In this document: in pieces, positions 35,623 to 60,569 of the stretch
Numbering within the stretch: the stretch's first letter is position 1
Layout: the number at the start of each line of letters is the position of its first letter
Assembly: GCF_032362555.1 (NCBI RefSeq)
Contig: NC_083523.1
Span: forward strand, 6,423,501 to 6,487,500
Reading direction: 5' to 3'
Source: Amyelois transitella
Lineage: Eukaryota > Arthropoda > Insecta > Lepidoptera > Pyralidae
DNA length: 64,000 nucleotides
The notes under the pieces: generated by a model
The model's input: the letters and a program-made list of their open reading frames with translations, nothing else
Database searches by the model: none
Told to the model about the DNA's origin: nothing
Translations under genes and position numbers: made by a program

Positions 35623-36824
35623 CCCTTGGACATGTGCATCTTGGCAGACATATGCAACCACACCTGGATCCCGGAATGCGCGCTGGAAAGGGACGAGGAC
35701 TATTACAGGCTCTTCATAGACGAGTGTGACATGTTCGAGTATAACTGTGACAACCAACTGCGTAAGTCACACCAAACGCAGGTCAGAAGCAGTGCAGTCT
35801 GCAAGCGGGCCCGCACCTACTTGTAACACGACTCTCTCTCTCTCTCTCTCTCTCTCTACAAAACTCTTCGAATTCGTCACATCAAATTAAAACGCGCGCC
35901 TGCGCGTTTGAAGAGGTTCAGCTTGGTGTGTGTGCAGGTTGATTTATATGTAAAAACTATGTGAATCATGCAAATAAATTATTGTGGGCAAGTTTTTAAT
36001 CAGCCCTGCTACTGATGTTTGTTTGACGTGCCTGGCTTTTATGGGAGATACTTCACTTCCATCATGTGCGCCATCTATTTGTCAGGCTTTAAATTTGGTG
36101 CATTGTTTATTTAGTGTACATCGAGTACCCTCAATATTTAATGCATAAGTAATTTCTATAGACAGTAGACTTTTTTCTGTACATGACGTTTATTGTCTGT
36201 TTCTGTATGTTTGTTGTATTATTTGCAGACTTCGAAGTAAGAAACTATTCGGAGTGCTTCTCTCAAGGTCCTTGTCCACCAGCGAAATGTCCTCCCACTA
36301 AGCAATGTCCAAGTCACCGTCGATTTCATGGAAAGGACGATGGTTTCCTGTTTTATAGGAAGTCTTTGAATCCTCCAACAAGGGCCACTCCACCACCAGA
36401 CCTTCCGAAACACATGCTCCACGGCAAGAGAAGATATACTCCAAATAAATACAAAAAGAAATTACGAATAGAAGATTATCCGCCAAACCTTTTGCTAATG
36501 TTAAAAAGACAATTGGAGAATGATGCAAAAAAAGCTAAAAAGCAAGAAATGCAGAAATATAATAGAAAAAGTCCCATGCGAGCGTTGAAAACCAATACTA
36601 AGGCTACAACCAAGACTGCATCAAGGACTCCGAATAAGCCTAAAACGCGACCTACTACTCGTGTGGTCACTGGATTAACCACTAGTTTGTGGATAACTAA
36701 GATTATAAAGACGAGTATTTTTATAAAAAATGGTGTGAGAGTCATAAAGATATTCAAAAGTATCAATAGACATGTCAAATCTACGAAACCGATGAACACT
36801 GAAGATTCTGATTACTTACAATGA
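35623..36824 (+). CDS. gene A: secreted-type Kazal-like domain with long basic tail (first exon not found)
   Basis: Exon 35,623-35,761 (TTTTCCAG before, GTAAGT after; phases 0 and 1) encodes PLDMCILADICNHTWIPEC through FIDECDMFEYNC. Exon 36,229-36,824 (TTTGCAG before) adds HFEVRNYSEC, the sixth cysteine, then GPCPPAKCPPTKQCP and a long Lys/Arg/Pro/Thr-rich tail ending DSDYLQ. Cysteine spacing is C-x5-C-x7-C-x15-C-x6-C-x13-C, close to Kazal domains but with a longer third loop. The two exons give 244 residues. The leader exon, which should end in phase 0 as in genes B-D, was not found upstream, so the gene may start further left or be broken. Role unknown; the basic tail could bind acidic polymers (inference). 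Confidence 0.72.
35829..35858. repeat. CT microsatellite
   Basis: About 14 CT units in the gene A intron, just after the Kazal-like exon. Confidence 0.9.
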
Positions 36825-36866
36825 AAACATGAAAGCAGCTTTTTCAACTAAAGAAATTACTTTGTT

Positions 36867-37015
36867 ATTATAAATTTATTTATTTATTTATTTATGTACA
36901 ACAAGAAAAATTAGCAAAAAAAAAAACTTAAAATAAAGAGAAATTCAGTACAAGGGCACTACTTATTTCTAGAGAAATTTCTTCCAGCAGGCCCACGACA
37001 GGAAAGTGTAAAGAA
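36867..37015 (-). repeat. LINE-like 3' fragment just after gene A
   Basis: TTTA repeats, then sequence shared with 34,458-34,600. Its AATAAA at about 36,934 could serve as gene A poly(A) signal, as none is seen nearer the stop. Confidence 0.6.
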
Positions 37016-37831
37016 AGGCATTGGCTTGTGTACATACCTAATATTTAATATATAAACTTACATAAACTTACTGATATTAATAGACCTAAAACATATTATC
37101 AAATAAATGTATTTTTTATTGTGTTTTTTCTGGAGATACATATTTAAAATCGATCCAGTGTGAAAGATTAGGTGACCGAAAAAAAAAACATACATATACC
37201 ACGATTTTATTTTATATAGAGTAGATAGAGTAGACGAGGCAGCAGGCTCATTTAAGCTATATGGCTTTATGATAAAACTGAATTTAAGATAGTGACAGTT
37301 GTTTAGTTCATGGCCTTCACTTGATCGACTTTAACAATTTATATGGGAAGAGAAAATCATAAACACTGGTTTTTGTTCATGATTAAACTAGCATATTAGC
37401 AAGAAATAAAAACACATGGCTTAATGATAGAATTGAGATTTAGGGATAATGACACGTTGCTACCAACATATTGAAACTATATGGGGAATCCAAAGTATAT
37501 ACAATACAACAATTCTTGTTGATCAAAATAAATCACAGAACGAATCCATATTTAAAAACAGCGAAAAAAAGGTAACTTCAACAATTAACTATAGACATTT
37601 ATTAGGATATAAATTGCTTTAAAAACTTTCTTTAGAAAACACAAATCTCTACAGCACGTGACGCGATATAGGCGCTGGTCTTTTATTTTCTTGTGTTACA
37701 CAATAATGTTCAGTGTTGTAAAGCGTTAGTACTCCTTGTATATTTTATTATCACACGACATAAATTCATGGTTACTCGTAATATTATTACTTCGAACAAA
37801 ATGTGATACTTAAGAAACTAAAACAAAAATT

Positions 37832-39799
37832 ATGTTAGCAGATAGTGCTCTAAAATATGTGATTGTAAATTTGGTTTGCTCCGTATTTTATACGATACCA
37901 AGACCGCATTTTGAAGCGGTAAGAAAGAACAATATTATAGAAAATGCAAAATGTTATTGTCTGTTTGCTTTATAAATATTAAAAAAAAAAATATGTGTAG
38001 TGTTGTCAAAAAACCTATAAAATTTTTCTACGAACTCACATATCACTTCGATTTTTTTAAACAGAGAATCGAAACATTTCTTTACGTTTATGAAGCAAGT
38101 TAACTCATAAAATATCACAATAGGTTCCCTTACTCGGTACTTGTTGTATCGAATGGTGTATTTTTGATTTTTGATCACAGGTTTCCAATTCCTCATTTTC
38201 AGGTCAACAGTGTTTGTTATCTGTCAAGCATCTGCAATCATACGGGTGTCGTTGTATGCGGGATTGAAACCAGATCATTGGACAGAAAGTTGTTTTTGGA
38301 CGAATGTGATATGATTGAGTATAACTGTAATGATCGCAAAGGTACAGTTAACATTTTGAAATACACGTATGTTCTTTCCCTTAATTTTACGTTTAATTTA
38401 CTTTGGATAACGGGATAAGCGATCCGATTATATATTCTCTTCACTTTTAAAAAGATTTACTGTTTAAGTTACAGCGGTGTACAGATAGCAGGCAGCAGTT
38501 AGTCTCTGCACTAGCAAAAAGTTTATTTATGAATATAGATTGAAGAGGTATATGAAATATAAATGACCTTAAATGGAAATTTGTGAGGCTAGTCGATGGT
38601 AGAAATATGTTGAGATTTGTTCCATTCATAAAAATTACATCAAAATAATTTATGATATCATTCATATTTCAGCATACAAAATCTCTGAAATGACAAAATG
38701 TGCATCACATGGAAGCAGAGAAAATGACGTGTTGCCTTCGTACGCAACCAGCTTATTAACGACACAGATGACCACTACACTAACTTTTACAACACCTAGT
38801 CCAAGCGAATCTACAGAAACTTCTCCTACTACAAGTCTTAGCACTCCGGAAATCATTGTTACTACAGTAACTGCAACTATTGGCACTAAATCAAAAACTT
38901 CTACAAATACTGAACCGCAAACAATTCTTACAACCACATCAAGTACCGCAATGACTACAACTATTGCACTAGAAACAACAACAACCACATCTTTACCACA
39001 AACAACAACAACATCATCTCTACCAGGAACTACAGAAACAACACAAACAGCGCCGACTGAATCAACTCATGCCCTATGTTCTTGTACTTGCCATACAACG
39101 ACTGAAGCGATGACTGATACATCTTCTACAACTACGACGGCATCAACAACTATGACGACGAAAACAACAAGTGAACTAACTACAAGTGAAGCGACAACTA
39201 TTTCAACAAATCATTCTCATGCGCCTGATTGCTGTACTTGTACGCCAGCTACAATTTCTACAGTAACACCATCCTCAATAGATGTTCAAACTAAAAGTGT
39301 ATCAGCAACAACAACTTCAAGTAAAACAAGTGAAATAACGGCAACAACAGAACTCACGACTACAAATACTTCTGCAGAAGTTGATGAACTATCTACTACG
39401 GTTGAAACCACACTAATTATAGATGATGATACAACACAGACAGAAAATACACATACTGTTAATGAAACATCTAAAATTATATCTACAATAGAAGCTTTAA
39501 ACGTAACAGAGACCGATATTGAAACATCAAAAATCACATCGATAAAACCAATAAAAAGAAATTGTTCATCTACATATCCTGACGACTGTGAAATACCAAC
39601 AACTTGGGAGACCACTGCTATGGGAGAGAGAAGAGATTTTTTCCAAATACTTAAACAGAAATTTGGTAGAAGAGCAAGATGGTTGAAAGATACTACACAT
39701 TTTCCTAGACGCAGAACGATTTTATTGGAAAAGGAAGGTAATGGATTTCGATTCGGGCATCACAATGAAAAACTTTCTGTTGATAAAGAATATTTATGA
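37832..39799 (+). CDS. gene B: Kazal-like domain with Thr/Ser-rich mucin-like tail
   Basis: Exon 37,832-37,918 encodes a leader, MLADSALKYVIVNLVCSVF to HFEA, then GTAAGA; its end resembles HIEAAK and HSEAIK in genes C and D. Exon 38,203-38,341 encodes the cysteine domain (VNSVCYLSSICNHTGVVVC to DECDMIEYNC). Exon 38,673-39,799 gives AYKISEMTKC, which supplies the sixth cysteine, then about 300 residues rich in Thr and Ser with two small Cys islands (HALCSCTCH and HAPDCCTCTP), and a basic C-terminus after NCSSTYPDDC. Total about 450 aa. Spacing C-x5-C-x7-C-x15-C-x6-C-x13-C matches gene A. The Thr/Ser stretch is likely heavily O-glycosylated; mucin-like secreted or surface coat protein is an inference. 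The leader exon is the least certain part. Confidence 0.75.
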
Positions 39800-40003
39800 A
39801 GACATACGAACTGAAGACCTTTAATGAACACATACGCTTCTGATTGTTAAAGCTCGCGTTAAGTTCTCCTTAAACAAAACAAAGGCATTACATTGATTGA
39901 GTTCCACAAGTACTTATTAAGATCATATTATTTTTATTCTAAGCATCCTGGTTCCATTCCATTATCTAATCTTTATTTTTTTTCATCTTTTATTTTTTTC
40001 ATT

Positions 40004-40080
40004 ATATAATCGCAGTCAGTTTAAAAAACTTTTTTTAGTGACCTAAAAAAAGTTTTTTAAAGATTCGACTGCGATTATAT
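40004..40080. repeat. long hairpin after gene B
   Basis: Outer arms ATATAATCGCAGTC / GACTGCGATTATAT (14 bp) and inner arms TTTAAAAAACTTTTTTTAG with its complement (19 bp) surround the loop TGAC; the arms are separated by a 2-base and a 5-base bulge. It may be a tiny foldback element or may act in transcript 3' end formation. Confidence 0.7.
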
Positions 40081-40720
40081 GGCTGGTTACTTGCCCTACG
40101 TTATAGTCCTCTCCTTTAGAAATATTGCCTATGGTCAAGGCTATTTTTAGGAAGGGACTGCAGCGCGACAAAGCCGCCTTTTCTATTTTCTTTTTGTAAA
40201 TACTTGTTGCCCTATATTTTTTTTTCGTACAATAATGTGTAAACTAAACTAACACACTTAAAAGGCTATGTAGTTTCTAGTGGCAGAAATACACGCCGAT
40301 TATGTGAAATCTGGAAATTTATCCTTCATTCAAATAATCTCACATACATCCATTGTCATAATCTTATGATCGGGTTTGATGTATTATTATATGCCTAATT
40401 ACGCCTTTACAATCAATTTGCTGGCATTCAAAACAAGATCCTAGACACAGATAGTTCGGGAGCAAACATTATAGTAATGTCAAGGAGACATTGTGTATTA
40501 GATGGTTAGATATCGCAGTAACGAGATGTAAGCATTTTTGTGAATCACGTGAGTATTTTGAAACAGTGCTGTGATATTGCAAAGACAAATTGTCTGTCGG
40601 TATTCGCCCTTCAATAAGTTGGACATGAGTGTCAATTGCGATTTGTGAAATAACTGTTTATGATTTGTCAATTTTCAATACTAATAGGTTGTACACAGTT
40701 TGTTAGCACATATGGTTAGC

Positions 40721-40995
40721 CTTGTGGTTCCCGGCACCAGTACAAAAAGAATAAGACCACTTTATCTCTTTCCCATGGATGCCGTAAAAGGCGACTAAGG
40801 AATAAGCTTATAAACTAGGGATTTTTTTAGGCGATGGGCTAGCAACCTGTCACTATTTGAATCTCAATTCTATCATTAAGCCAAATAGCTGAGCGTGGCC
40901 TATCAGTCTTTTCAAGATTGTTGGCTCTGTCTACCCCATAAAGAATATAGACGTGACTGTGACGTGCTAACATACATACATACATACATACATAT
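40721..40995 (+). repeat. TATG-tailed interspersed repeat
   Basis: Full-length copy, CCTTGTGGTTCCCGGCACC to GACGTGACTG. Its 3' end is followed by an inverted copy of the tail: GTGCTAACATACATACATAC, then GTATGTATGTTAGCAC at about 41,007-41,022. Confidence 0.8.
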
Positions 40996-42895
40996 GCTAT
41001 GTATGTAAGTATGTATGTTAGCACAGTTGTGTTGCTCTGAAAAGTGGATATTCAAACGTGTAATGAACCTGCTGCGCAGATTTATACTTAGATTGATAAA
41101 GGTAGAGGAAAAGGAAAATTATAACGTAATAAGCTTTTATCAGCAGCTTCGTCCATGCGTATTTAGCGCCTACACACACGAATTTAACGCCACCTACAAA
41201 AGATTTGGTTCAGTACATAATGCGTGAAGAGGAAACAAACATACAAACTTACTTTTGCATAAGTACAGATATATGTATACTTTTCTAAATCCAGCCTTGG
41301 ATGGTAGGCGGAGATTACAAAGGATCCCTTTTTTCTCTCTATGCACGGAACCTTGGAAAACGCATCAAAACAGCAGAATTTTTGAATGTGGACAAGGCAT
41401 ATGTCATAACTTCTCTCTAAACGTATCGCTGAGTGACACCAATGACATATTTTTTATTTAATCTATAATTTTGTAATTTTTATTGTATTTAGTGTGTGTA
41501 GCAATTCAAATAAATGCATTATCTATCTATTTGTCCATTGTTGAGGTTTACCGAACTTGAAGAAAGAGAGGAAAGACAACACATGTCTTCGTGAATGACG
41601 CTACGCTCATTGGTGAAAGCCTAGAAGCGATTGCATTTTTATTATTTGTAATACAAGTCTCGAACTTACTAGGCAAATTCAATCTTTGTAATTAATGACT
41701 TAGATATTTATTGTTATAATTTTTTTTCGTTAAAAGTTGCTGACAAAAATAGCATTATCAGATTTTTAATGCTCCTGTTCGCTCAGGGATTAAAACAACA
41801 TCAAATTGCTAATAGAACAATCTCTATAATCATTGCGACACCATAATGTCGTCTAAGTAGCCGTGTGTTGCCTAACAGATTGCAATGAACTTGACCATGT
41901 ACGGCATTTAAATTGATGACGATGATGCAATGACATCGAGATAATGAGGTGAGTAGGAAACCGTTGTAATGATGGTTTGGTAACGTTTTCTTCTTAAGAG
42001 TTATTATGCGGATGTGTCTTTAAATCATTTAGGTAATGATGGACACGAAATATTTTTTGATGAAAATTTCACTGATTAAAATGCCATTCCGTGCCGAATA
42101 AATGACGTTCATTAGTTTGGTTTAAATTTTGTGTAACTAGCGACCCGACCCGATTTCACATGGGCAGCATTTATTGATATTAACCTTCTCCAGAAAATTC
42201 TCTGTGCAACATTTAAAATCCATCCACAACTTTAAAAAAATAGCGCGTACATACAGAGAGAGAAATAGGGACTTTATTAAATGTAGTGATTGATAAAACC
42301 AAAACAAAGGGAAGAGGGCGAATTAAGCAGATTTTTTTTTTATTTTGTAATCGTAAAGAAACTATAGTTAAAGAAACGATATTAGGATTAATATATGTAC
42401 TTACTTTGACCATTTCACTGGTCTTTTAAAAGAATATTTAAGAAGAATTTTAAAAAAATGTTTTCATTTTATATAACAAAGAAAAATTACTAAATTAAAC
42501 TTACCAGCGATTAAAAATATTAGTAGTAAATTCGAGATTTACTAAATGGTATGTATGACATCAAATATTACTCAATATATAGGTTTTTTGCCTATACGGC
42601 TAAAAATGTCCTTCTAGAAACTTTATAATTTTAATCCAATGTAATTTATTTCCGCATTACTATGGAAATGGACTCGAGAACTATTCCCAAAAGCCTTTGC
42701 TTATGTTAATTGTTCGCGGCCTTCTGTCGGGTTTAGTATGTAAACATTTATAAACAAATAAACAAACACTGCGTCATGTCCAAGGGTAACGCATAACATA
42801 CGAATTTAAAAGGGTAAAGATTGAAGACACATTTGCTGCAGTTTCATAAGCATAATAGCTTTTGCTAGGACAATGATAATGATTATTACGATATT

Positions 42896-43047
42896 TATGG
42901 CTTGATGATGGAATTGAGATTGAAATAGTGACAGGTTGTTAGCTCAGCGCTTAAAAGAAGATTCTTAAGTTTATTAGCCTATACCTTAGTCGCCTTTTAT
43001 GGAAAAGAGATGAGATGAGAGATGGTCAAAAACCACACGGCACTTTA
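42896..43047 (-). repeat. TATG-tailed repeat, partial
   Basis: Minus copy with GATGGAATTGAGATTGAAATA, CTTAGTCGCCTTTTA and the AACCACACGGCAC end; the tail is missing. Confidence 0.7.
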
Positions 43048-43320
43048 GAATAGAACTATACCTATATGTACTTATAGCAATAAAGATGCGATATTTGTGT
43101 GTGTGTATATACATTCTTATCTTATTAACGCACGACAATGTATGAATGTAGGTACCTGAGTAGGTCTCTCGTGGTTAGAGTCACATCTCATGAAGGCCAC
43201 ACTGCCCTTATTTGAGTACAACGGACCAACATACACTGTTTATTTATAGATTGCGACATATCAACAGAATAGTACACTTAATTGGTTCGTAGGTACAGTG
43301 GAATAAAAAGAAAGGAGTGT

Positions 43321-43530
43321 CGCAGTTAGGCGATGGGCTAGCAACCTATCACTATTTGAATGTCAATAACTAATAAACGAGAGAGAGAGTATTCTCTCTT
43401 CTCTGTCTACCCCGCAAAAGATATCTCTTGCGGGGTAGACAACAGTATCAGTCTCTTCAAGACTGTTGGCCCTGTCTACCCCGCATGAGATATAGACGTG
43501 ATAATATATGTGTATGTATGTATTTGCTTT
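43321..43530 (+). repeat. TATG-tailed repeat with an internal snap-back
   Basis: GTCTACCCCGCAAAAGATATC meets its own complement (TCTTGCGGGGTAGAC) at about 43,420-43,441, then the repeat resumes to GACGTGATAATATATGTG. Confidence 0.75.
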
Positions 43531-44179
43531 TCCATAAGATCTTTTTAGTCTTTATCTTGTTTTATTACAAAAGGTTGTGAAAAATTAAGTAAAAGCTAAC
43601 CTATTGACTACTTGTTTAACTTTTATGAAGCGAACGAGTTATAACACGCCTTATTCAGAAGTTATCTTGTATAAAGCAAGCACGTGTAAGTTTAAAATCG
43701 CGTTAAAATTAACATACATTTACTCGTATAACTTAGTCTTGACGAATTCACCTAGAAAGGTTTTCAAAGATGTCTTTCTCCCGATCGGAGTTTTATTGTC
43801 TTTATTCAGCTAGCTAACGTACTCACCTAATATACCATTACACCTTTATAGCACTAATACGTATTCTCATAATGGCGATAAAGTTAATAGACAAAGTTAC
43901 GATGATAATAAAGTCTTGCTTGATCTAGGAAGGTTATGACCTATTAAATTTGAGCTACCTATGAGGAGAGTTGAAAAATATCGATATCGGGGATCGTCAA
44001 AAATTTAGTTTTTAGAATTTCCGTCTGACTTTTCCAGCCATAGTAGCTATAGTATTTTTTTCCTATTCTCATTTTTAATCCTGTACAAGAATCATCGCGA
44101 ATCGTGGAAGACATGCGCGTACGCATTTAATAAGTGTAAAGGAATTATTAATTATGGATACGTCATGATCAAATCATCA

Positions 44180-44452
44180 TTTAATACATACATATATACA
44201 TATGGTCACGTCTATATCCATTGCGGGGTAGACAGTGCCAACAGTCTTGAAAGGACTGGATGGCTACGTTCAGCTATTTGGCTTAATGATAGAATTAAGA
44301 TTCAAATAGCGACCGGTTGCTAGCCCATCGCCTAGAAAAGAATCCCAAGTTTGTAAGCCTATCCTTTAGTCGCCTTTTACGACATCCATGGGAAAGAGAT
44401 GAAGTGTCCTATTCTTTTTTGTATTGGTGCCGGGAACCACACGGCCATTTAA
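44180..44452 (-). repeat. TATG-tailed interspersed repeat
   Basis: Full-length minus copy ending in GGTGCCGGGAACCACACGG on plus. Confidence 0.8.
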
Positions 44453-44837
44453 TGGTATATTTATTTTAAATTAATTGCATCTAAAGGTACCACATCTAGT
44501 ATGTACGGTCGATTTAGTAAATAGATGTAGTCCCCAAGCATCGGAATTGTGAAATCTAGTCAAGGATTCGAAAGGTTTGTCTCAGGACATTACATAAAAT
44601 GATGCATTATCAATGCAAAATAGAACGGTACACGGTATGTAGGTTTGTTTTGCAAAGGCCGTAACCATTGTCATTTGATTTTTATTTAAAATTTTATTAT
44701 AATAAAAATAACTGCTCAAAAGATAATTGACTGTGGATAATTTTTTCTGTATGAATATTATTCAGCTATATTTTGGTAGAGTAGAATATTTGGGAGAGTT
44801 ATTAGTTAAAGTACCTAGTAAAGCATTGGCTAGATAC

Positions 44838-45115
44838 TGTTCCGTGTGGTTCCCAGCCAGTTAGAATGGGACCAATCCATCTCTTTCCCACGGATGTCGT
44901 AAAAAGCGACTAAGTGATATTAGCCTATCACTTAGCCGCTTTTTAACTTGAGATTCTTTTTTAGGCGATGGGCTAGCAACCTGTCACTATCTTAATCTCA
45001 ATTCCATCTTTAAGCCATACAGCTGAACGTGGCTTTTTAATCTTTGTGAGACTGTTGGTCCTGTTTACCCCGTAAAGGATAAAGACGTGATGATATGTAG
45101 ATATGTATGAATGTA
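44838..45115 (+). repeat. TATG-tailed repeat with an internal snap-back
   Basis: AAAAAGCGACTAAGTGATA is followed at once by TATCACTTAGCCGCTTTTT at about 44,898-44,943, an inverted copy of part of the repeat. Confidence 0.8.
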
Positions 45116-45237
45116 GTGGTTAGAATTGGTTAAGATATACGACTCAAAAAGTGTACTCAATCCATAGTGCACCAGTTTGAATCAAACTATGCTCATGTAT
45201 CAAGGCCTCTTTAGTGAGTACGTACATTAGTTTGATT

Positions 45238-45658
45238 CTTCTTCTTCTTGCGTCGTAAACCTCATTACTGAGGGTCGTGAACTCCCCGGAGACAAGTCAG
45301 TTTAGAGCGCACCACGTCTCTCCACCTTGCCCGGTCCTTAGCGGTGTGGAGCGCCTCATGTAGGTCCTTATCCAGAGTCGAACGTATCTGGTCAGTCCAT
45401 CTAAGTGGGCTACGTCCCCTTGATCGTTTCCCCTCTACCTTGCCGGTGATCATCAGCTGTTCCAAATTGTCGCCATCTTTGCGGGCTATGTGGCCAAAAA
45501 ATTCCAGGATTCTTCGTAAACAGATGGTGGAAAGCCTAGTTTGGATGTTGAGTTCACGAAGAATAGACCTGTTTGTGCGAAATGCAGTCCATGGAATCTG
45601 GAGCATCTTTCTCCAGCACCACATCTCGAAAGCATCAATGCGGTTAGTTAGGTTAGTT
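45238..45658 (-). mobile_element. 5'-truncated RTE LINE copy with target duplication
   Basis: The minus frame 45,265-45,675 encodes only the C-terminal end of the RTE protein (FEMWCWRKMLQIPWTAFRTN to RGRSPLRWTDQIRS). It is related to, but clearly different from, the copy at 19,308-22,662. The 12-bp direct repeat ATTAGTTTGATT flanks it (45,226-45,237 and 45,659-45,670), and the 3' end is again an AAG repeat. Between the 5' break and the duplication are about 18 bases of GGTTAGTTAGGTTAG-like filler. Confidence 0.85.
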
Positions 45659-46327
45659 ATTAGTTTGATTACCAACTTTAAAATAAGTTTTAATTTTGTA
45701 TAGTTTTGACCAGTCCGTTTTCAATTGTAATGTGAGTCACGTGTGTAAGTGATGTAAAAAGAATTGCAGAAAAGCACCCGTACTGAATAATAAAATTGCA
45801 ATGAAATGTAAAGGAAAACTTTTAAGGTTGAACTACATATAAATGTTAAATAACTTAAAAAAATAGATTTCCCTTTTCGTAGAAATTTTGGGAAACCCTT
45901 TCTTTGTACCACATAAGAAATATGTCTATTTTCAAATAGGTATCTGTCTGTTTGTCTACGTTATCGTATCTCCCGAATGGATAGACCGCTTAGATTTTGA
46001 TGGTTTTTTTCTTTGAATGTCTAGACCCAGTGGTTTGGGCTATGCGGTTATCACTTCAGTAAATCAGTGTCCTTTTTGAAAAATAAAATGAATATGATTT
46101 TTATATCTTACCACTTATTGTAACTTATTGTTATCATTTACGAGTATAATTACTGTGACAATATTTCAATGGAATTAGATCATATCAAGTAGATCACCTC
46201 GTCTGCTTCCGGTTTCCGGACTTCCGCTTCTTCCGGTTCTTGCTTGAACTTTTGTAACGTGATCAATTGATGCTGATTGAAGTGCCTTCATTTATTAATC
46301 CAGTTGTAATTACATCACAAGGCTTAT

Positions 46328-46540
46328 TAAAGGCGACTAAAGGAATGGGTAATGAACTTGAGATTCTTCTCGTACGGAATGGGCTAGCAATTCCTGTCAC
46401 TATTTGAATTTAAATTCCATCATGTACAGCTGATCATGGCCTTCAGACTTTTCAAGAGTATTGGCTCTGTCTACCCCGCCAGGAATAATATTAATATAAT
46501 GTCAATATATGTATGTATATATGTACGTATATGTAAAAGG
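46328..46540 (+). repeat. TATG-tailed repeat, 5'-truncated
   Basis: From GGCGACTAAAGGAATGGG to a TATGTATGTATATATG tail. Confidence 0.7.
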
Positions 46541-47185: not shown

Positions 47186-47312
47186 GAATAGATTTATTTT
47201 CAAAGTTGGATACAGGTATCACTTATTGACGTCACATCACTTAAATCTTTTTATAACTACTATCGCTTCCAAAGTGCATGTGTAGAAGAAGCGGCGGAAC
47301 AAACTACACTGC
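47186..47312 (-). repeat. LINE-like 3' fragment, paired with 27,757-27,893
   Basis: Near-copy of the earlier stretch, including TATCACTTATTGACGTCACA and AGAAGCGGCGGAACAAAC. Confidence 0.65.
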
Positions 47313-48162: not shown

Positions 48163-48425
48163 GTAAGTGACGTTACCATTCTAGTGAGATCGCGCCTTTG
48201 TTTTTGAAATTGGAATGTGTCTTTTGGAAAATGGCGGGTGTAATAATTTTATATCAGTGATGTGTGTTGATGGCCAGTGTCATGGAATAGTTTTGCATAA
48301 GGGTGTTTTGACAGTTCAGTCTAAAAATATAAAGCTTCAATAAGATGTTTAAATACTAACTTTTATTAAAAACAACATTTCTTGATCTATTTATTGACAT
48401 GTGTTAAGAAAGTTTTATATTTACA

Positions 48426-48630
48426 CTAGAGGCCGCCCGCGACTTCGTCCGCATGGAAACCCTATCAATCCCGCGGGAACTCTGGGATAAAAAGTAGCAT
48501 ATGTGTTATTCTGGGTCTTCAGCTATCTACATACCAAATTTCATGGTAATCGGTTCAGTAGTTTTTGCGTGAAAGAGTAACAAACATCCATACATCCATA
48601 CAAACTTTCGCCTTTATAATAGTAGTAGGA
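48426..48630 (-). mobile_element. nonautonomous Helitron (205 bp), twin of 53,664-53,868
   Basis: On minus it starts TCCTACTACTATTATAAAGG and ends GGACGAAGTCGCGGGCGGCC then TCTAG, between A and T. I count three differences from the twin. Confidence 0.85.
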
Positions 48631-49947: not shown

Positions 49948-50289
49948 ATGCGTCTTATCATCGCAGCGGCTATCTTAGCGGTGGCTCAGGCTAGGCCAGC
50001 CCTCATCTACACACACCCACTCCTACCCCTGGGAGTGGAGTACGCCCATACTTCAGTCCCAGCGGTGCGTCCACATCCAGCGGTGGAACGGAACGCGGCC
50101 AGAGAGGCCCTCTTACCAAGGGATTTACTAAAGTCCAACGATTTTTACGATAACCCATCCATTGCTGCCGGACTAGCTAAAGAATCCTGGTTCACCAACA
50201 AAGAAATGCAAGTAGTGGAACGGGAAGCTGAGAAAATACCACGCGAGAGAATCTACCATATCGTCAAGAGCGCTGGATTTTTAGACTAG
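49948..50289 (+). CDS. small secreted protein, 113 aa, family not recognised
   Basis: A single coding exon; CTCCTACAG ends at 49,942, so the 5' UTR is spliced. MRLIIAAAILAVAQA is a clear signal peptide, probably cut before RPALIYTHP. The mature part begins with Pro/His-rich sequence (THPLLPLGVEYAHTSVPAV) and continues with a charged part (ARREALL-like helix, then AAGLAKESWFTNKEMQVVER) and IPRERIYHIVKSAGFLD at the end. No cysteines and no membrane segment besides the leader. It looks like a real, constrained protein, but I cannot name it or its role. Its opening could suit a cuticle or haemolymph protein, but that is a guess. Confidence 0.8.
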   Translation: MRLIIAAAILAVAQARPALIYTHPLLPLGVEYAHTSVPAVRPHPAVERNAAREALLPRDLLKSNDFYDNPSIAAGLAKESWFTNKEMQVVEREAEKIPRERIYHIVKSAGFLD

Positions 50290-51614
50290 ATTCTAATTTC
50301 AAATGAATATTTTTTTATTGTAAAAACGAAAAATGACACCTAATATTATTCAGACTTTAATTTTATGTATTATTTTTGTGTCTAAAATTCTTTGTAATTA
50401 TTATTACTATTTAACAGTAATATGGCATGTCGTTATGCGCATGCGTGTGTATGTGTCCATACTATTTAAATATTTTCTTTGCTGGACTCCACTTTGTAAT
50501 ATTTTTAGGTTAATATATGAAGAATACGTTTTGTTTGAAAGCAAAATTATGAATGGTTGATTAAGATTATATTTATCAAAAAAAAAACACTTGAAAAAAT
50601 GCACGTTTAAGAATAGTTTAAGTTATTAGATTTTACTATTTTCGTACATACATACATCTAAGTAATTAATACAATATTAAGTTCACAAACTATTTCAATG
50701 CTGTATAATGTATTTGTAGAGAAAAATCGTCACCTTGTGTATAAGTGTAATATAGTGTAAGTGAATCTAAGTCATAAGTTCGTCAATATTAAAGGTTAAT
50801 AATATAATTTGTACAACTATTTAAACTATGCATGCAATGTATTTAATCTGTGGTATTTATGTAAATATTAGGAAATTATGCGCGTAATTTCAACGAAACC
50901 GGTTAAACTAAGTTATTATAGCTACTAGTGGATATTTATACTTGAAATTAAGTTATAATTAAGTGCAAACTGTGATCTCGGACAATAAGTGCTTACGCAA
51001 GTTATTGCTCCATTGTTGTTATTAAAAGCAATTGTTTTGATATGTTTGGCATTTTTAATTTTAAGTAGAAACAGGTTTGAAAATCCTCACATTAATTTAT
51101 TGTACTTTGGCGTTGGTTTGCCTTGAGTAACATCGTTATACTCGTACCTACGTAGTTATGTTTGGACCCAAACCAAATTTGATAAATCATACTATCCTTA
51201 AAATTCGATTTTCTGTTTCTGGTTTTCTAGTTACATTCGGTCTCCCCTTCAGAGATGTGAGGAAATTACTGATACAAAAACCTGGAGAAAAATCGAAATA
51301 AAGAAAACAGGAGATTTTTTTTGAGTTAAACACTTTGGATTTCATAGAATCTGGGCACAGAGATAGCCAAAATTCTGAGGAGTAACATTGTTTTATTTTT
51401 CGAATTCCCACGGTGGTACGTCCCAGGTGAAAGTCAGGGATATAGAAACCTAGTGATACAAAGCAATATCTAGCTTTAGACCAGATCCTTAGTGCATGGT
51501 GAATTATCACTAGGAGAGCCGACCAGAATTGTTTGTTCCAAAATTAATGGGAAATGCGAAGAAAACAGAGAAAGAAAGCAAAGTCCAGCAAAAGGGAAGC
51601 TTAGTAATAATTTT
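50290..51614. other. 3' UTR of the secreted-protein gene and spacer
   Basis: AT-rich; no AATAAA seen close to the stop. ATTAAA occurs at about 50,796 and 51,023. Open frames here (50,333-50,560; 51,187-51,510 minus) show no family features. Confidence 0.45.
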
Positions 51615-51620
51615 TTATTT
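51615..51620 (-). terminator. poly(A) signal of gene C
   Basis: AATAAA on minus, overlapping the last A or two of the stop codon TAA. Confidence 0.6.
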
Positions 51621-54600
51621 AAACTAGGTTTTGTTTGTCACAGTCAAGTCCGAATTCTGTCTTCTTGAAACTCCTGCCTCGTTTGCACGTCACCCAGCAT
51701 TCGTGTTGTGGTTTTTGGACAAAATCTGCAATGGAAACGTTATACGTTATAATATAATACGTACCTACGTAATAATGTACCTACATTATTCACGTATATA
51801 TCCCTTGCAGGATAGACAGAGCCAACAGTCTCGACAAGAATAAGAGGTCACATTCAACTAAATGGCTTAATGATGGAATTGAAATTCAAATAGTGACAGG
51901 TTGTTAGGAAAAGTCATCATCATCAACAAGGAAAATCCCAAGTTTATTAATAATTTTCTTAGCTGCCTTTAACGATATCCATATACATAAATATATTATC
52001 ATACATACACTAAAATCACGTATCTTTCCCGAAAGGGTAGGCAGAAACTACATTTATTCACTTGTAACGGTCCTTGCTTATGTCGCTTCGTCCATAATTC
52101 TCTTCATGCAAGCTCGTTAGTCTAGGGTAATCTTGGCCTGACCGTTGCCAATGATATCATGGTGCCAGTATCTAGCAATTGTCCTATATAAAAACCGGTC
52201 CGGTTCGGTTCTCCTGCAAACGTTGCGGAGGTCAGACGGGAGAAGCTTCGTGGGAAAACCTGACTTCCCTAATCCATCTAATCCGTGCATTTTGCCCCTG
52301 CTACCCCATAAGGGATAAATATATTATGATGGTATATATCTGTTGTTCTAGATAATCATGCAATTTTCAAGAAAAATACAATATCATGACCCCATTATAT
52401 CTTGATAGAGTTATATTACTGTAGTTATAGTTTTATTTCGTTCGCTTTGTTGTAAATTTCTGCGTGGGTGCGTCGTAAATTATCTTCTCAACAAGCAAAT
52501 TCAAAAATCTTTTGATACAAGTTCATTAATATAATTGTGAAATTGAATAATTATTTGATGCTAGAGTACGCCTGTGGCCCCGCCCGCATAGAACGAAAAT
52601 TCCCCTATTGTTTCCGTTCCCGCGGGAATTCTGGGAATTTTCTCTTAGTGTTTGACCATGATCCTTGATTAAGTCAGGTTACGAAGCGACTCCCATCTGT
52701 TTTCTGAAACCTAACTTTACCAAACTCATATTGGACCATGGTAAAAGCTGAACTGGGTGACTTAGTCTTTAGTCCCTTAGTCGCCTTTTATAACATCCGT
52801 GGGAAAAAATGTGTGAGTGATCGTATTTCAACATGTAGGGAACCAAACAGGTGTACATTATAATCATTGAAATTTAAATAATGTATTACATTATACCATA
52901 ATGTACGTAAGGGATAAAGATGTGAGTTTATGTATGTTTTATTAAAATTTCTATAATTACAACCTTATGTAAGAGATATTCCGCCTCTTAAATTGTTAGG
53001 TTTAAACTAAATAATTGACTATGAAGGCTGAATCTGAGGAGAACCTCGTGTAAACTTGCCTTAATCCCCACCCAGTCTCTGGCGCCAGTGTGTGGGCGGT
53101 AGAATAACCATCTCAGTATGACCTATGCTGGATAAAGGTACTATAGGGATTGCAACAACGTTTAATTTTATACTAGCTGTTGCACGCGACGTTACTCGTT
53201 ATAAAAGTTTACTAACAAGAAAGTTCTAAAGGAAGTCTTTTGAAGTTATACCTAGCCTAACGTATCTACTCGTAAGAAAACCGCATTAAAATCTGAGCAA
53301 TAGTTCTTGCTTGATGCAAGTACAAACATACATATAGACATACATTCTAAAAGTCACATTTTTGACTTTTATTTATTATGAATAGATTTTTTGTATGTTT
53401 GTATCTTTCAAGTACGGACATCGGTCAATCAAAAGTTTATTATATGCAGGTATGGATTTAAAATTTTCCAATACAGCAGGGGTTGAAAACTTTTTATCGA
53501 GTTTTATTTTTATTGAGTGAGAAAAGGTTGACGCAAAAATAACTAGGTTTTCTTCGAAGTTTCGGCCCCGAAGCAATTTTCCAAAATCCCTTCGTTGGAT
53601 CCTTACGTAATCATAACTTTTTGTATGGCAAATTGTCTCGGTATACCTTTTTTTTATTTCTTACTAGAGGCCGCCCGCGACTTCGTCCGCATGGAAACCC
53701 TATCAATCCCGCGGGAACTCTGGGATAAAAAGTAGCCTATGTGTTATTCTGGGTCTTCAGCTACCTACATACCAAATTTCATGGTAATCGGTTCAGTAGT
53801 TTTTGCGTGAAAGAGTAACAAACATCCATACATCCATACAAACTTTAGCCTTTATAATAGTAGTAGGATAACTTTATAAGATTGAAATATTTTTTTTTTC
53901 TAAAAGCAGGCTCTCAGTACTCGCACTATTTAGTGATTTATAAAGATTTTAATACAAAAATAATTTAAATTGAAATCTGTTCGTAGTTTTGTGTACATTA
54001 ACTAAACCAGTCATCATTTTCTTCTTAAATAAGTTTATTTGTTCTTGATAAAAATAGTAAAAAACAATTTTACCAACTACAAACATCATTAACAGTTATA
54101 TGAAAAATCATAACTTCTAAAAGAAGAACTTTTTGAAGCTTATTGGATTCCATCGGATATTTTAACTCAACGATTGAAACCGCAGGAAACACATAGTACG
54201 TACCTAATAAAGAAAATCTTTAGTCTGTAACGATGGCGCGTGGGCGGATAACCTTTGAAAATACCAAGTTTAATAAACATTTTCTTTCATTAGCAATTCA
54301 TTTATGTTTTGCGGCAAAATTAATTTCAACTTTTAGGTATTTCGTGTTGAAAAACGTATGATGAATAATGATTAATAGGTATAAGTAGACTTTACAGTTA
54401 GTCAGTGACTAGCTTCTAGTTAGCATTTCTCTCTCATTCGTTTTTTGCGTGGGAGTGTGGAGTTTGTTTGTTTGTAATATCTTTATTGCACAGAAATTTA
54501 CACAGATATAAGAAAAATTATATAAAATAGCAATAAATAAATAAATTCAGGGATCTCTTTCAGTCAACCGGCGAACAATAAAGGAACTAGATAATTAAGT

Positions 54601-56618
54601 AAAAAAGTGGCAGGTACTTACTAGTAAGAGTCGGCAAGTCTGAGTTTTTGAATGGAGAGTAGGGAAACTTACTGGAAATGGCTAGAAGGATTCTTAAGGC
54701 TTCGTGTAGCTAAAGTACCTATATTCTTCATTTAGTACTTAATCATCAAATCTTAGCATTAGTGCTGATTTCGATTAACCCCAGGTACGCTTAGTGACCG
54801 TGATGCTGGAAACTAGAACTAGGTACTAAGTTAGAGTCCAAGCTAAGGGTCAAAAATAAAATTTACTTCACGTAAAGGCGCACATGATCACAGTTTTTTG
54901 GGGTTCCGTACTTAAAAAGTAAAAGTATTATTAAGCCTCCGCTGTCCGTCCATCTCGCACTTGGCTGGTTTTATTCAATATATTTCTTTTGCTAGCAAAA
55001 CTTTTTAAGGCGCCATACTCAATCGATGTTAAGCGTCATGTTATAAGTACTCTTACTTTCTGAGAATATTATCGAGAATAGGACAAGATGAGAGAATTAG
55101 ATATTCAGAGAAGCGGAGCTCTGATTATCGAGAATAGGCTAAGACGAGATAATGAGAAATTCAGAGAAGCCAACTATTAACAAGTTAACCAAACTCTATC
55201 TACCCCATGAAGATGTAGGCGCGATTGTATCGACCTTTCTTCGTATTCTGTCTGGCTTATTTTAGGATAAATTAAATAGTGACCTTGATCAAATATTAGG
55301 AAATCATAAACTCACGCCCTTGCGTGATGAATGTGGGTGAAGCGGAAGAAGTATGCAGGGAGCAAGTGGAAAGATGTTTCTTCCTGGCTTAATTTTTATG
55401 TATTCATATAATCACGTCTACATCATGTATTCATATAATCACGTCTACATTTTTTGCAGAGCCGTCAAGCCAGCAAGGGATATAGACATAGATATAGCAA
55501 GCTAAACGTGGCCTGTAAGTCCTAAAAGACTTACAGGCCACGTTAAGCTGTTAGGTTTAACGATAGAATTGAGAATCTCAATTCAATGTATATATGTATA
55601 TTGTATACCTTTCTTGCTATCACAGTTGAACTCGTGCATGTCACAGGTGTCTATAAACGTCCTCATTTCCCCACAGGAATCGATACCGCAGATCGGGACT
55701 TGGTCGTGTCGGCAAATGTCCGCTATTTTGCATTCCTCTTCTAACTGAAAGTGTAAAATATTGATAAAAAAAGCAAAGCTAAAAGAAAGGATAGTTTGTA
55801 ATTATATATAATAAATGTATGTGGGATGGTCTTAATTCATATTATTTTATCATTCAAAATAATATGATTTTAATATGATATTTTTAACGTAAGAGAAATG
55901 AACAGAGGGAATCCTGTGTGGAATCAGTACCAAACTGTAATTATTTTGACTGTTATAATTATTGTACCTAGCAATAAAACAATTTCATTTTAATTCAATA
56001 CTATTTTCATTTGAGAATAAATAAACTTAATTGGTTGTAATATAATAGCAAAAAATATCTTTGACGCCATTAATACACCACAAATGTCGTTCCCGTGGGA
56101 AATAATATTAAATCCTCTCTTAGTAAGTATTCGTCTCTACGCAAAAAACATATACATTTACACTTAAATTGTGTCCCTACAAACATAGTTAGTGTTGCCA
56201 TAAATACTGTTCTCATTAAAAACAAACATACATATAGTCACGTCTATATACCTTGCGGGGTAGACAGCAAGACAGAGCCAAAAATCTTGAAAAGACTGAT
56301 AGGACACGGTCGGCTGTTAAGCTTAATCGATTTGGGATTCAAATAAATAATTATTTTTTAAATTTGGAATGTATCATTTTTATATGACTGTTTATTGTAT
56401 TTGGTGAGTTTCTAGTCAATAATCTACGACTCTCGTACTAAAATGTCTGATATTAGACAAAAAATTGGGCCATTATTCGCGTGTTCTCATGGTTGCACTC
56501 GAAATCCAGGGTTTGAAAGGTAAAAATAAAGTTCACTTACTTTGGCGGCTTCAATATGTCCGTAAGTAGTTTTAAAGATTGATACTAATATTATTGTAAA
56601 AAAGTAATACTCGATCAT
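51619..56618 (-). CDS. gene C: small secreted Kazal-like Cys-rich protein (106 aa)
   Basis: Three exons on minus. 56,541-56,618: leader MIEYYFFTIILVSIFKTTYG and HIEAAK, phase 0. 55,609-55,744: LEEECKIADICRHDQVPICG, IDSCGEMRTFIDTCDMHEFN, CDSKK, phase 1. 51,619-51,725: DFVQKPQHECWVTCKRGRSF then KKTEFGLDCDKQNLV, stop. All splice borders fit. Cysteines C-x5-C-x7-C-x14-C-x6-C-x13-C form a Kazal-like frame (PICG, TFIDTC, NC), with one extra Cys in the third loop and two in the tail. The intron before the last exon is about 3.9 kb and holds a Helitron. A poly(A) signal AATAAA overlaps the stop codon. Secreted and disulfide-rich; protease inhibitor is the family default, but see the His at the P1 position. 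Confidence 0.85.
51770..51930 (-). repeat. TATG-tailed repeat, partial
   Basis: Minus copy in gene C intron 2: TATATCCCTTGCAGGATAGAC to CAAATAGTGACAGGTTG. Confidence 0.7.
51931..53663. other. gene C intron part: repeat scraps
   Basis: Holds a minus non-LTR C-terminal scrap (52,020-52,120), a Helitron end (about 52,560-52,650), a weak TATG-repeat piece (52,770-52,860) and another Helitron-like end at about 53,172. No exon seen. Confidence 0.5.
53664..53868 (-). mobile_element. nonautonomous Helitron (205 bp), twin of 48,426-48,630
   Basis: Same length and ends as the twin, in gene C intron 2, between A and T on minus. Confidence 0.85.
54470..54590 (-). repeat. LINE-like 3' fragment
   Basis: TAATATCTTTATTGCACAGAA and TCTTTCAGTCAACCGGCGAAC resemble the 33,215-33,320 end. 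The rest of 53,870-55,300 shows nothing I can name. Confidence 0.5.
55420..55600. repeat. repeat scraps with direct and inverted duplications
   Basis: TGTATTCATATAATCACGTC occurs twice in a row, and AGCTAAACGTGGCCTGTAAG meets its complement across a short loop (55,499-55,550). Built from pieces of the TATG-tailed repeat. It ends right beside the gene C exon 55,609-55,744. Confidence 0.7.
56227..56350 (-). repeat. TATG-tailed repeat, 5'-truncated
   Basis: Minus copy in gene C intron 1, tail CATACATATAGTCACGTC. Confidence 0.75.
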
Positions 56619-57549
56619 GTTATTTAAACAGTGGTTTGTTATTTCAAATAAATATAATTTACTACATTTCAACAGATTTTTATTTGCTGAAATATAGTTA
56701 CGCACTGTATTTACCTACTGAAGAAAGTAATAAAATTGTTCCACTTTTGTTTTATCAATTTATTGCTCCATTTACCTTCCGCCGGCAGCTTCATTCGCGT
56801 GTAATTTGTAGTGTATTAGCTTTTGAATTACGTAAACTAAGTTACCATAAAATTTCATCGCAAGCCGTTCAGAACATTTGGCGGGAATGAGTAAACATAT
56901 GTACGATCGCGTTCATATCTGCAGTCATAGTTTTAAAATTCTTACGGGTTAAAATAGCGTGCACTGTGGTTCCACTAGATACACACACACATGCATATTT
57001 AAAAAGAATAAATATTCCTTCAAATGAATACGGTCTTTAATACCAATGATTACTAAGTAAAACAGTTTATTATTCTATGACATATAACATAACAAAACAA
57101 AAAGAGAGGGTAATCAACGATGTCCGAACTGGGCCCGATAATTGTCGATCGAGATATCGTCGTCTCTCATTATTTGCATAAGATTTGCCTATAGAGGGAA
57201 GCCTGCGACTGCCAGACTTATGTCATTTCAATAAAGTTGAAAGTTTGTCTGCACACGACCCTAACATAGGTAGTGGTTCCTTTGAAAGTTATTGGGTTGC
57301 AATTTTATTACTTCGTTTGTGCAAGTGAGATCAAAGATATATTAGATAATCTCGCTTGCTCACACTCGCTTGTTCTAGTTACTAGCGGATTCCGAAGTTA
57401 TTCAAGGAATTTCTGTCTATTAAAAATAATAATATATTGTTACTGACAATTTTTAATGTTTCAAGGTGCCATTTGAACTAAGTAACTGACTGACTAACTA
57501 ACTAACTGATATCTAAGAATTACGATACCCGTGTCTTCAAACACGGAAA

Positions 57550-58480
57550 TCAGCAAGAAATATTAAACAAGAGGGAGCAAAATAAAACATTCAATAATTA
57601 AAATTAGTAAATTTTATTGAAACAGTTTACCTATAGTTTTGTTTACATATTGATGATTATATAAAGGTATACATACAGCATATTACACTAATTTACCTAT
57701 CTCCTGTTATTAAGGTTACAGCTTAATTATTCGTTTTCATAAAGAAAAGATATTGAAGCTGTCCTTAAAATACTATCTAAGTAGTAGTTTTAATATAAAC
57801 TGGCAGAACCTTTCACGCACTATATGGACTCGATACACAGGGTAGTTGTCTTGCACAAATGATATTGCATATCATCAATCGGATAAATACACCGCACAGT
57901 TGGTAACATGGTTTCTTCCAGCACTTGCACATAATGAGCAGCTGTAGCGCGTCCTGCTATCCACATCTGTTCTCCAGGTCCAGCAGCACTCATCCAGCCC
58001 CACATATTTACAGATATGCGTCCAGACTCCATATTTGGCACAATATTTTTTTCTTCATACCGAGTTGCATTTCTTCGCCATAAATGAAGCCTACCGTGTT
58101 GCGATGACGTAAACGAACTTTTTGTCCGTAAATATCGCCGTGTTCCAGTCAAAATCCAAATACTGCCGAGCAAATTCTAAATGTTTTTGCTTATTTATTT
58201 CGGATAAATACGGCTTTCTTGCTGGCTGTCTGTGGAATGTATGTGGTCCCTCACGGTGCAAACTCGACGAACAGTAACCACTGATGTGTCAAACTGTTCC
58301 GCAAATTCTGTTCTGGTCGGTATGAAGCCATTATTTTCGTACTGTTCCACCATGGATCTCCGCTGTGTGGCGTGTCGCTGTGTTGATTAGCGGACGACGG
58401 TCGCTGCCCGGTCGACTTTTTACACTACCCTCTTGATGGCGCGTTACCCAACGCTTAACCGCTTGTTGTTTATTGTGTTA
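57550..58480 (-). pseudogene. decayed Tc1/mariner transposase
   Basis: Minus pieces in several frames: AVKRWVTRHQEGS and SRPGSDRRP (N-terminal HTH end, about 58,385-58,450), EQFDTSVVTVRRVC, KQKHLEFARQYLDFDW then IFTD, and in frame 57,820-58,173 GRLHLWRRNATRYEEKNIVP, SVNMWGWMSAAG and AAHYVQVLEETMLP. The order is that of Tc1-type transposases. At least two frameshifts and an early stop. Terminal inverted repeats were not found, so the borders are loose. Confidence 0.75.
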
Positions 58481-58719
58481 TTTGTGTGAATGTGTGAGTG
58501 ACAGCGGTGACTGCAAGCTATAAAGTTTTGCGAACTATGACTGCAATTATGAACGCGACCGTACATACAATGAACTTTCGCTATAACGATATAGTGGAGA
58601 GTGAAATAGGCAAGGTTATATCAAAACTTTCATGCTGGTCTGATAGCGAAACCATAGATGCTTCTCTTTCCGTGCAGTTTGTAAAAGTCAGTCAAGGGAA
58701 ACGCTATTAAACTTGAAAT

Positions 58720-58925
58720 TCTTCCTTAATGCAATGACCTAGCAATCTGTCACTATTTGAATCTCAACTCCATTATTGCGCTTTTAAAGACTGTGGGTTT
58801 TGTCTACTCGTAAAGAATCAAGTTGTTATTTATTTATTTAAAATTTTATTGTACAAAAAAATGTACAAAAGGCGGACTTAATGCTGTTTGGTATTCTCTA
58901 TCAGTCTACCAGCTGACCAAACAGA
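58720..58925. repeat. degenerate TATG repeat (plus) next to a LINE 3' end (minus)
   Basis: 58,720-58,825 has CTGTCACTATTTGAATCTCA. 58,836-58,925 has AAGGCGGACTTAATGCTG and ACCAGCTGACCAAACAG, as at 33,241. Confidence 0.65.
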
Positions 58926-59025
58926 ATTATGTCCATCCGAAAACGCCACAGTAAAGCGTTTTATATTAATGGTAAAAACTACAGGGAAAAATAAATTGGA
59001 ACATATAATTTCTACCTTAAAATAA

Positions 59026-59031
59026 TTTATT
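59026..59031 (-). terminator. poly(A) signal of gene D
   Basis: AATAAA on minus directly after the stop TAA, the same layout as in gene C. Confidence 0.6.
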
Positions 59032-60569
59032 TTAAACTCTATTATTTTTGATGTTGATGTTGCAGTCAGTTCTATATTCCGGCTTTTTGAATGAACGTCC
59101 TCTTTTGCAAGTCACCCAACATTCGTGAATCGGTCGATTTTTGAAATCTAGAACATAAATTTTATTTTATTTTGCTATTATTCATGCCAGTTACAAAATA
59201 ATGGTGGTATAAAAAAGTTTAAGAAAAAAAAGGAAGCGGTGAATTAATCCGTGAGCCAATTTTTTTTGTACGGCATCCTGTAATATTGAGAAAATGATAT
59301 TTCTTTTAGGCACAAAACAGAATGATAAGTCTACAGGGAAAACGTATTTCATCATATTGTAACTGAATACAAACTGATTGATATAGATTACGTACTAAGT
59401 ATTTATTTTCGATAAGTAAATAAGTAAGCATATACATATATGCATCAGTATGCAGTAAAAGTCAATCAAGGGAAAGGCTTACACCTGGGATTCTTCTGAA
59501 TTAGCAACCTGTCACGTGATCTTGGCAAGTGGATAGATGTGGTCTCTGCCTACCCCTCTGGGTAAGTGGCGTTATTTTATGTATGTATGTACCTTTCTTA
59601 CTGTCACAGTTGAACTCATGCATATCACAAGTGTCAATAAAAGTCCTCATTTCGCCACACGAATCTATCCCACACATCGGTACTTTGTCGTGGACACATA
59701 AATCTGCTATTTTACATTCTTCTTCATTCTGTGAACGTAAAGAATTAGCTTTTCTTACTTATCTATCAATATATTTTAATGCAAAAATCACCTATTCACT
59801 AGCACTCTTTGAGCATTTAAAGATCGAATTTAGCAGGTACCTGGATAGATTGTAATAATTAGACGTCCAGTAAAAAAGCCGCGGGAACGGTGATAGAGGA
59901 TATTTTCGTTTGACGCGGGCGGAGCTGCGGGCCTAGGTACTCTAGTCAGAATAAAAAGCAAGCTAGTTTGTCTTAAAAAAATATTGACTGTATTTGATCT
60001 CGGTTTTTAGATTCCCCCTTCGATTACTCTTTTTTAAGTGTATTACGAAAAACGTGGCGAATGAATCACTTGAACTTAGATTCAAATTTGAAGTGATAAG
60101 AAGGTTTTAACTTATCAAATTTATTATCTATTGCCAGGAAAGAAGTAAAGATAACTTTTTAATGTATAAATATTTTTTATAACAAACAGATACTAATAAA
60201 ATACAAATAAAACAACACGGTTCAACGACAAGGTTCAAGTATTTTTGGAATGTTTGTTTGAAAACTAAATATTTGGTAACTTTAATAAATACTTACTTTA
60301 ATAGCTTCACTGTGGCAATTCGCTGATGAAATCATATACAAAAGTAATCCTGAAAGATTTGAATTTTATTATTTTATACAAGTAAATCGGTAAATTTAAT
60401 AAAAGAAACGTTATTTGTGTTAATTGAAAATGAAAATGGATATTATTTTATTCATGTTGAAAAATTTTTTTTCACGCGTTATTTATACAAACATTACCAA
60501 CCTACAGTTATCTATTTATGCGCCAGACAATAATATACTTAAAAAACAACGTTTTTTTAAAGAAAACAT
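59032..60569 (-). CDS. gene D: small secreted Kazal-like Cys-rich protein (about 111 aa), paralog of C
   Basis: Exons on minus: 60,539-60,569 (MFSLKKRCFL, phase 1; inferred), 60,297-60,349 (RLLLYMISSANCHSEAIK, phase 0), 59,593-59,728 (NEEECKIADLCVHDKVPMCG, IDSCGEMRTFIDTCDMHEFN, CDSKK, phase 1), 59,032-59,147 (DFKNRPIHECWVTCKRGRSF then KKPEYRTDCNIN to NNRV, stop). The cysteine exon is almost the same as in gene C over its second half, with identical length and phases; the last exons share HECWVTCKRGRSFKK. So C and D are a tandem duplicate. The leader is split by an extra intron not seen in C, and the start exon is less certain (an in-frame Met also at 60,585-60,587). AATAAA follows the stop at once. 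Confidence 0.82.

Follow-up and report, generated by a model that had tools for sequence, protein, structure and literature searches.

Does a cluster of genes that share one small cysteine-rich head and differ in what follows it belong to a known inhibitor fold, and how did its unlike C-termini arise? This question is raised by a 64,000-nucleotide (nt) stretch of the Amyelois transitella genome (NCBI RefSeq GCF_032362555.1; 327 Mb, 33 contigs), positions 6,423,501 to 6,487,500 of contig NC_083523.1, referred to below as the window (G000:C19:6423501-6487500 in our numbering). The window holds four such genes, A and B on the plus strand and C and D on the minus strand. We consider it probable, though far from certain, that they belong to a tandemly duplicated family with 14 members in 85 kb and a single outlier, encoding probably secreted proteins with a single Kazal domain near the non-classical group 1 type, which would act as protease inhibitors. 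The head belongs to a known family; what looks new is an unusual contact residue combined with fast-changing tails.

The exon layout of the four window genes is uniform. The cysteine exon, which carries the first five cysteines (C1 to C5), is preceded by AG and entered in phase 0, and is followed by GT and left in phase 1 (4/4); the sixth cysteine (C6) is supplied by the tail exon, with a C5-x13-C6 spacing in every gene. A preliminary description of this DNA, made from its letters alone, had proposed a shared 136-139 nt cysteine exon with phases 0 and 1 and C6 13 residues on, and all four genes bear this out. All four tail exons are open up to a stop. Among six-frame open segments of at least 25 residues in the window, the pattern C-x5-C-x7-C-x(10,17)-C-x6-C occurred at only four places, which are genes A to D, and a profile built from the four heads recovered these genes at E < 1e-27 in six frames of the window, the next match standing at E 0.31. 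A codon comparison of C with D found differences at 34.5 of 42.0 synonymous sites, a saturation that prevents a ratio of rates from being given, and at 29.5 of 198.0 non-synonymous sites; for the cysteine exon alone, 8.2 of 112.7 non-synonymous sites had changed. This pattern indicates old duplicates kept by purifying selection and, judged from it, A to D are real coding genes.

The cluster continues beyond the end of the window and comprises at least 14 genes and one outlier. A genome search with the gene C head matched 12 exons, all on the contig of the window (contig C19), and a profile search covering the window with its neighbouring stretches (133.5 kb) and 10 kb around the outlier placed 14 heads between 6459132 and 6544740 (~85 kb) and a single head at 6975529, 0.43 Mb off. 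These 15 heads are named A-F and H-P, the letter G being unused. At E ≤ 10, the A head had 12 matches genome-wide, the M head 4 and the P head 14, all but one of them on contig C19; because such searches score only the best candidates, further distant copies are possible and the counts are to be read as "at least". The sole match elsewhere, of the P head to contig C27:3292424-3292522 (+) at E 0.053 and 36% identity, may be a distant relative or chance. All 15 heads have a GT exactly four residues past C5, in phase 1. A simple donor score ranked this GT first in 11 heads; in A, B, H and L one other GT scored higher. The common plan is a phase 0-1 cysteine exon, a tail exon adding C6 and, in about half of the genes, a signal-like first exon. 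Gene H (C19:6492231-6493307) contains ~6.4 tandem copies of a 138-bp unit with 86% matches; the unit takes in the 3' half of the cysteine exon, its frame repeats segments like CDMFDFNC, and the gene may be decaying.

We assessed the heads as Kazal domains by cysteine spacing and by profile comparison. Spacing was C1-x5-C2 and C4-x6-C5 in 15/15 heads and C2-x7-C3 in 14/15 (x8 in gene E), with x13 to x15 between C3 and C4 and x12 to x14 between C5 and C6, the last cysteine being located in 13/15 genes. A profile of the 13 complete domains matched seven PDB chains at E ≤ 10, all of them Kazal-type or follistatin proteins: the best was 2n17 (E 4e-4), followed by follistatin-related protein 1, greglin, elastase inhibitor, ovomucoid, silk protease inhibitor 2 and follistatin. 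Kazal-like domains are present in follistatins. With the profile of the four window domains, 2n17 was the sole PDB match (E 0.0083). Searched member by member against Pfam, 5 of 13 domains matched Kazal_2 (best 3.9e-5), four Kazal_CFAI and two Kazal_1. For comparison within the genome, a Kazal_2 scan gave 122 matches at E ≤ 1, of which the 30 best-scoring loci served as controls; 17 were parsed (two of them repeat another's sequence) and 13 were left out as their pattern did not parse. The seven distinct, complete Kazals with C4-x6-C5 among these 17 matched the cluster profile at a probability of 81% and E 1.2e-5, with C2 to C6 in register; the probability did not exceed 1.2% for ten shuffled controls, of which six retained the cysteine columns. 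Judged from these profiles, the heads are Kazal domains, as the preliminary description had supposed from their cysteines.

The best PDB match, TFP4 (2n17) of the termite Coptotermes formosanus, is a non-classical group 1 Kazal inhibitor that comes from gland secretion and is active (PMC4433142). TFP4 shares C2-x7-C3 and C4-x6-C5 with the cluster heads, and its C3-x13-C4 and C5-x14-C6 compare with x13 to x15 and x12 to x14 here; it differs in having C1-x3-C2, where the cluster has x5 throughout, Met rather than His at the P1 position, and a total of 61 residues with no long tail. The non-classical group 1 trait, a C-terminal shift of Cys I and Cys V, may be matched in part by the heads: judged from sequence, C4-x6-C5 is as in TFP4, but C1-x5-C2 takes the place of x3. 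Domain 1 of horseshoe-crab CrSPI-1, a non-classical group I Kazal, has P1 His as here and binds subtilisin; it differs in being one of two domains and in having two disulfides only, and it is likened to the cluster by description (PMC3082530). Weaker profile matches (E 0.029 to 0.53) were greglin (4gi3 chain C), elastase inhibitor 1y1b, ovomucoid 1z7k and silk protease inhibitor 2 (2m5x). The first three are in register with the cluster over C2 to C6 and carry Leu, Met or Lys where the cluster has His, with a shorter C3-C4 loop in 1y1b and 1z7k; 2m5x is listed as a match only. A text search of the open-access literature, with subscription journals and protein databases outside its scope, found no description of the cluster, and the available parts of the silkworm (PMC3278429) and diamondback-moth (PMC5309989) inhibitor surveys and of the oak processionary venom study (PMC11335235) do not describe it. 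Within that search, the earlier statement that no such family had been described stands for the cluster as a whole, but not for its head, which appears to fit a known Kazal group in part.

The residue expected to contact the protease is nearly fixed. P1 of a Kazal domain is the third loop residue counting from Cys II (PMC4433142), and its equivalent is His in 13/15 heads; M has Pro, and E has Leu in a loop longer by one. The next residue is Asp or Asn in 11/15. None of the 17 parsed control Kazals has His at P1, where Ala, Leu, Pro, Asn, Val or Ser is found. The protease-contacting loop is usually the variable part of Kazal inhibitors (PMC4433142, PMC3082530); here, the contact residue is nearly constant among old paralogues and it is the C-terminus that has become unrecognisable, an inversion of the usual pattern. 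A His held this constant suggests a single conserved class of target. A Kazal domain having P1 His binds subtilisin in the horseshoe crab (PMC3082530), which makes His consistent with inhibition and directs attention to subtilisin-like targets; by this analogy, subtilisin-like proteases would be the best candidate.

The remaining Kazal loci of the genome resemble the cluster in arrangement. Kazal exons also lie in arrays elsewhere (e.g. contig C2 7.81-7.98 Mb and contig C23 1.15 Mb), but the 30 loci used as controls all exceed the Pfam cut-off, unlike the cluster genes, among which only L rises above it, at 23.1 bits in a match that runs across two stops into the intron, and M reaches 20.0. 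A donor soon after C5 was also found in one of the two contig C23 genes looked at (locus L056), 8 nt past C5 and in phase 2 as against phase 1 in the cluster. Further arrays lie on contig C5 (0.77-0.78 Mb), where open frames of >1000 residues hold many Kazal units, and on contigs C16 (8.61 Mb), C7 (8.2 Mb) and C25 (3.08 Mb).

Secretion was assessed with a single-exon scan for signal-like first exons within 1 kb. Candidates scoring at least 8 were found for B, C, F, I, J, L and M (7/15), against a background of 4.8% of 400 random intervals, and none were found for A, D, E, H, K, N, O and P. Gene C has the clearest signal-peptide candidate of the cluster. In gene D, the signal may be split over two exons, of which the second half was recognised by eye; position 60569, earlier put forward as the start of this gene, finds no support, the scan for a first exon having come back empty. 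On the strength of these exons, the cluster proteins are probably secreted.

Tail exons that combine an acceptor and the right phase with a cysteine 8-10 residues from their start, the cysteine being demanded by the search rule, were located for 13/15 genes; those of A to D had already been given in the preliminary description. The tails of A-D, F, I and L-P correspond to the best-scoring acceptor of our own search, and those of J (fourth by score, the nearest one) and K (acceptor 1.4) were picked by eye; the gene P tail exon lies 3.9 kb away. Beyond the window genes (Table 1), the chain continues after C6 for 11 residues in F, 6 in I, 14 in J, 36 in K, 81 in L, 89 in M, 7 in N, and 10 each in O and P. 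The claim that one head carries unlike tails is supported, with more kinds of tail than the three originally distinguished. These exons nevertheless begin alike: all 13 tails share their first 9-11 residues, among them C6 and an aromatic second residue. The second residue is Phe or Tyr in 13/13, against 54/321 candidates of the whole region (true ones included); this feature stood outside the search rule, and it is present in 7/7 of the tails F, I, L, M, N, O and P, all picks by best acceptor score. Heads C, D and P have an extra cysteine after C3 and their tails also have extra cysteines, and a head-tail disulfide is possible in these three; against this idea, the A and B tails have extra cysteines as well and their heads have none.

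The preliminary description had supposed that the intron inside the domain allowed tails to be exchanged, and the tail comparison does not bear this out. Likeness after C6 was scored for 78 pairs, and two were well above the rest: CD with z 18.7 and LM with z 14.6, each with 0/200 shuffles as high; the next pair, KN, had z 3.2 (1/200). Both of these pairs sit on heads that are sisters in the 15-head tree (C/D bootstrap 86; L/M bootstrap 90, 47.7% identical, rank 14/105 pairs), in which most deeper branches are weaker. No donor copy of the A tail was found, the next genome match being at E 0.19, and the last 81 residues of the B tail, the non-repetitive end that the search covered, had no other match in the genome at E 10. 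All 13 tails share C6 and the start of exon 3, which means that the exon is not foreign in its entirety; the simplest history is divergence and lengthening within exon 3 after C6, which appears to need fewer assumptions than exchange. Two pairs count against a view of divergence only: the sister heads J/K (Shimodaira-Hasegawa-like approximate likelihood ratio test 91, bootstrap 81) carry unlike tails (z 2.2, 11/200), as do the near heads C/O (60.5% identical, rank 2/105). Tails evidently change quickly, by divergence or by replacement. That paralogues swapped tails through the phase-1 intron and that the donors of an old exchange were since lost would fit these two pairs, the unlike tails of A, B and C/D, and the common phase-1 start of all 13 tails, by which a swap would keep the frame; set against the shared exon-3 start, the confinement of clearly alike tails to sister heads and the missing donors for the tested parts of A and B, we regard it as improbable. 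The label of an exon-shuffled modular gene likewise does not fit, given alike tails on sister heads only and no donor copies, with J/K leaving some room. We think it very improbable that some tails are separate genes, in particular that the listed open frame 36183-36824 of gene A, with its signal-like start MTFIVCFCMFVVLFA, is a gene of its own and the cysteine exon is joined elsewhere. The family donor of gene A does score only 0.4 and is outscored by a GT 20 nt further on in phase 0 (2.9); however, the hydrophobic stretch of MTFIVCFCMFVVLFA is the pyrimidine tract of a good acceptor (7.0), which encodes such residues anyway, and the residues following it place Phe and C6 at the family positions.

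Several observations weigh against a family of secreted Kazal inhibitors. The Pfam Kazal_2 gathering score of 22.8, which is a database cut-off and no biological definition, is missed by all of A to D (C reaches 14.3 and D 12.9 bits), and the predicted proteins A and B have no Pfam match whatever. Since A-D fall under this standard cut-off, similar clusters elsewhere may be unannotated. The best unrelated Pfam match, CpG_bind_C at 0.0039, was obtained with two members; the gene C protein alone gave three PDB matches, one of them the non-Kazal protein MalY (E 0.2). The Kazal fold has disulfides I-V, II-IV and III-VI; structure prediction of the cysteine exon alone, the domain being split by the intron, was of no use, with a predicted local distance difference test score of 42 and a predicted template modelling score of 0.19. 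No signal exon was found for gene A, and the tail search returned no acceptable exon for E and H. Two residues before C4, finally, the heads have Asp in 12/15 and Asn in three, where the 17 other Kazals have Asn (11), Ser (five) or Gly (one); Asp for the usual Asn may mean weaker inhibition, and a nearly constant P1 could equally signal a non-inhibitory role.

These last two points also speak for heads that no longer inhibit and use the Kazal scaffold for structure or binding instead, their conserved His-Asp/Asn pair having a role in binding or with metal. Follistatin- and vasotab-like proteins are examples of a non-inhibitory Kazal scaffold, and follistatin and follistatin-related chains are among the PDB matches. 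Against it stand the C2-x7-C3 loop length, retained in 14/15, the subtilisin binding of a known P1-His Kazal domain (PMC3082530) and the activity of the closest match, 2n17 (PMC4433142); we consider it possible, though on the whole unlikely. Under the inhibitor reading that we prefer, the head would act by the Kazal route, its exposed C2-x7-C3 loop entering the active site of a serine protease. Past C6, the chain would be free of fold constraint, so that the C-terminus could be lengthened or changed within exon 3, lineage by lineage, giving the extensions of 6 to 365 residues. The basic tail of A, the mucin-like tail of B and the Cys/Lys-rich tails of C and D might place the same kind of head in differing extracellular surroundings, for instance matrix, mucus, silk or eggshell. 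A more specific version, doubtful as it stands and offered tentatively, is that the His frozen at P1 marks a dedicated inhibitor of subtilisin-like proteases and that it is mainly the tail that varies, as an address label by which one kind of inhibitory head is held in many extracellular matrices; its targets would be convertases of the insect itself or proteases that invading fungi or bacteria bring. The cluster is also a case of long basic and mucin-like tails arising on a small disulfide domain.

Table 1. Exons assigned to genes A to D, in positions of the window.
Feature	Position	Strand	Details
Gene A cysteine exon (Kazal-like head, C1-C5)	35623..35761	+	139 nt; acceptor score 5.2
Gene A tail exon	36229..36824	+	C6, then 188 residues, Pro/Lys-rich; net charge +33, isoelectric point 10.6
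Gene B candidate signal-peptide exon, phase 0 (unproven)	37832..37918	+	from the signal-like exon scan
Gene B cysteine exon	38203..38341	+	139 nt
Gene B tail exon	38673..39799	+	C6, then 365 residues, 29% Thr, 12% Ser, mucin-like, acidic
Gene C probable signal-peptide exon MIEYYFFTIILVSIFKTTYGHIEAAK	56541..56618	-	donor AAA/GTAAGT
Gene C cysteine exon (C1-C5 and one extra Cys)	55609..55744	-	136 nt
Gene C tail exon	51619..51725	-	C6, then 25 residues, Cys/Lys-rich
Gene D possible second half of signal peptide	60297..60349	-	phase 1 in, phase 0 out; by eye
Gene D cysteine exon (C1-C5 and one extra Cys)	59593..59728	-	136 nt
Gene D tail exon	59032..59147	-	C6, then 28 residues; homologous to gene C tail

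Other features of the window lie between and beside these genes. An intact 113-residue frame with a signal-like start and no Pfam match occupies 49948-50289 (+), between genes B and C. Non-LTR (long terminal repeat) retrotransposon-like frames were found at 19333-22421 (-), the longer of which, 20478-22421, matches endonuclease and reverse transcriptase families. A pair of near-identical short repeats (gccgcccgcgacttcgtccgcatgg...), seen by eye at ~48430-48630 and 53665-53870, is probably a mobile element, and the frame 57820-58173 (-) resembles what we take to be a fragment of a mariner-type transposase.

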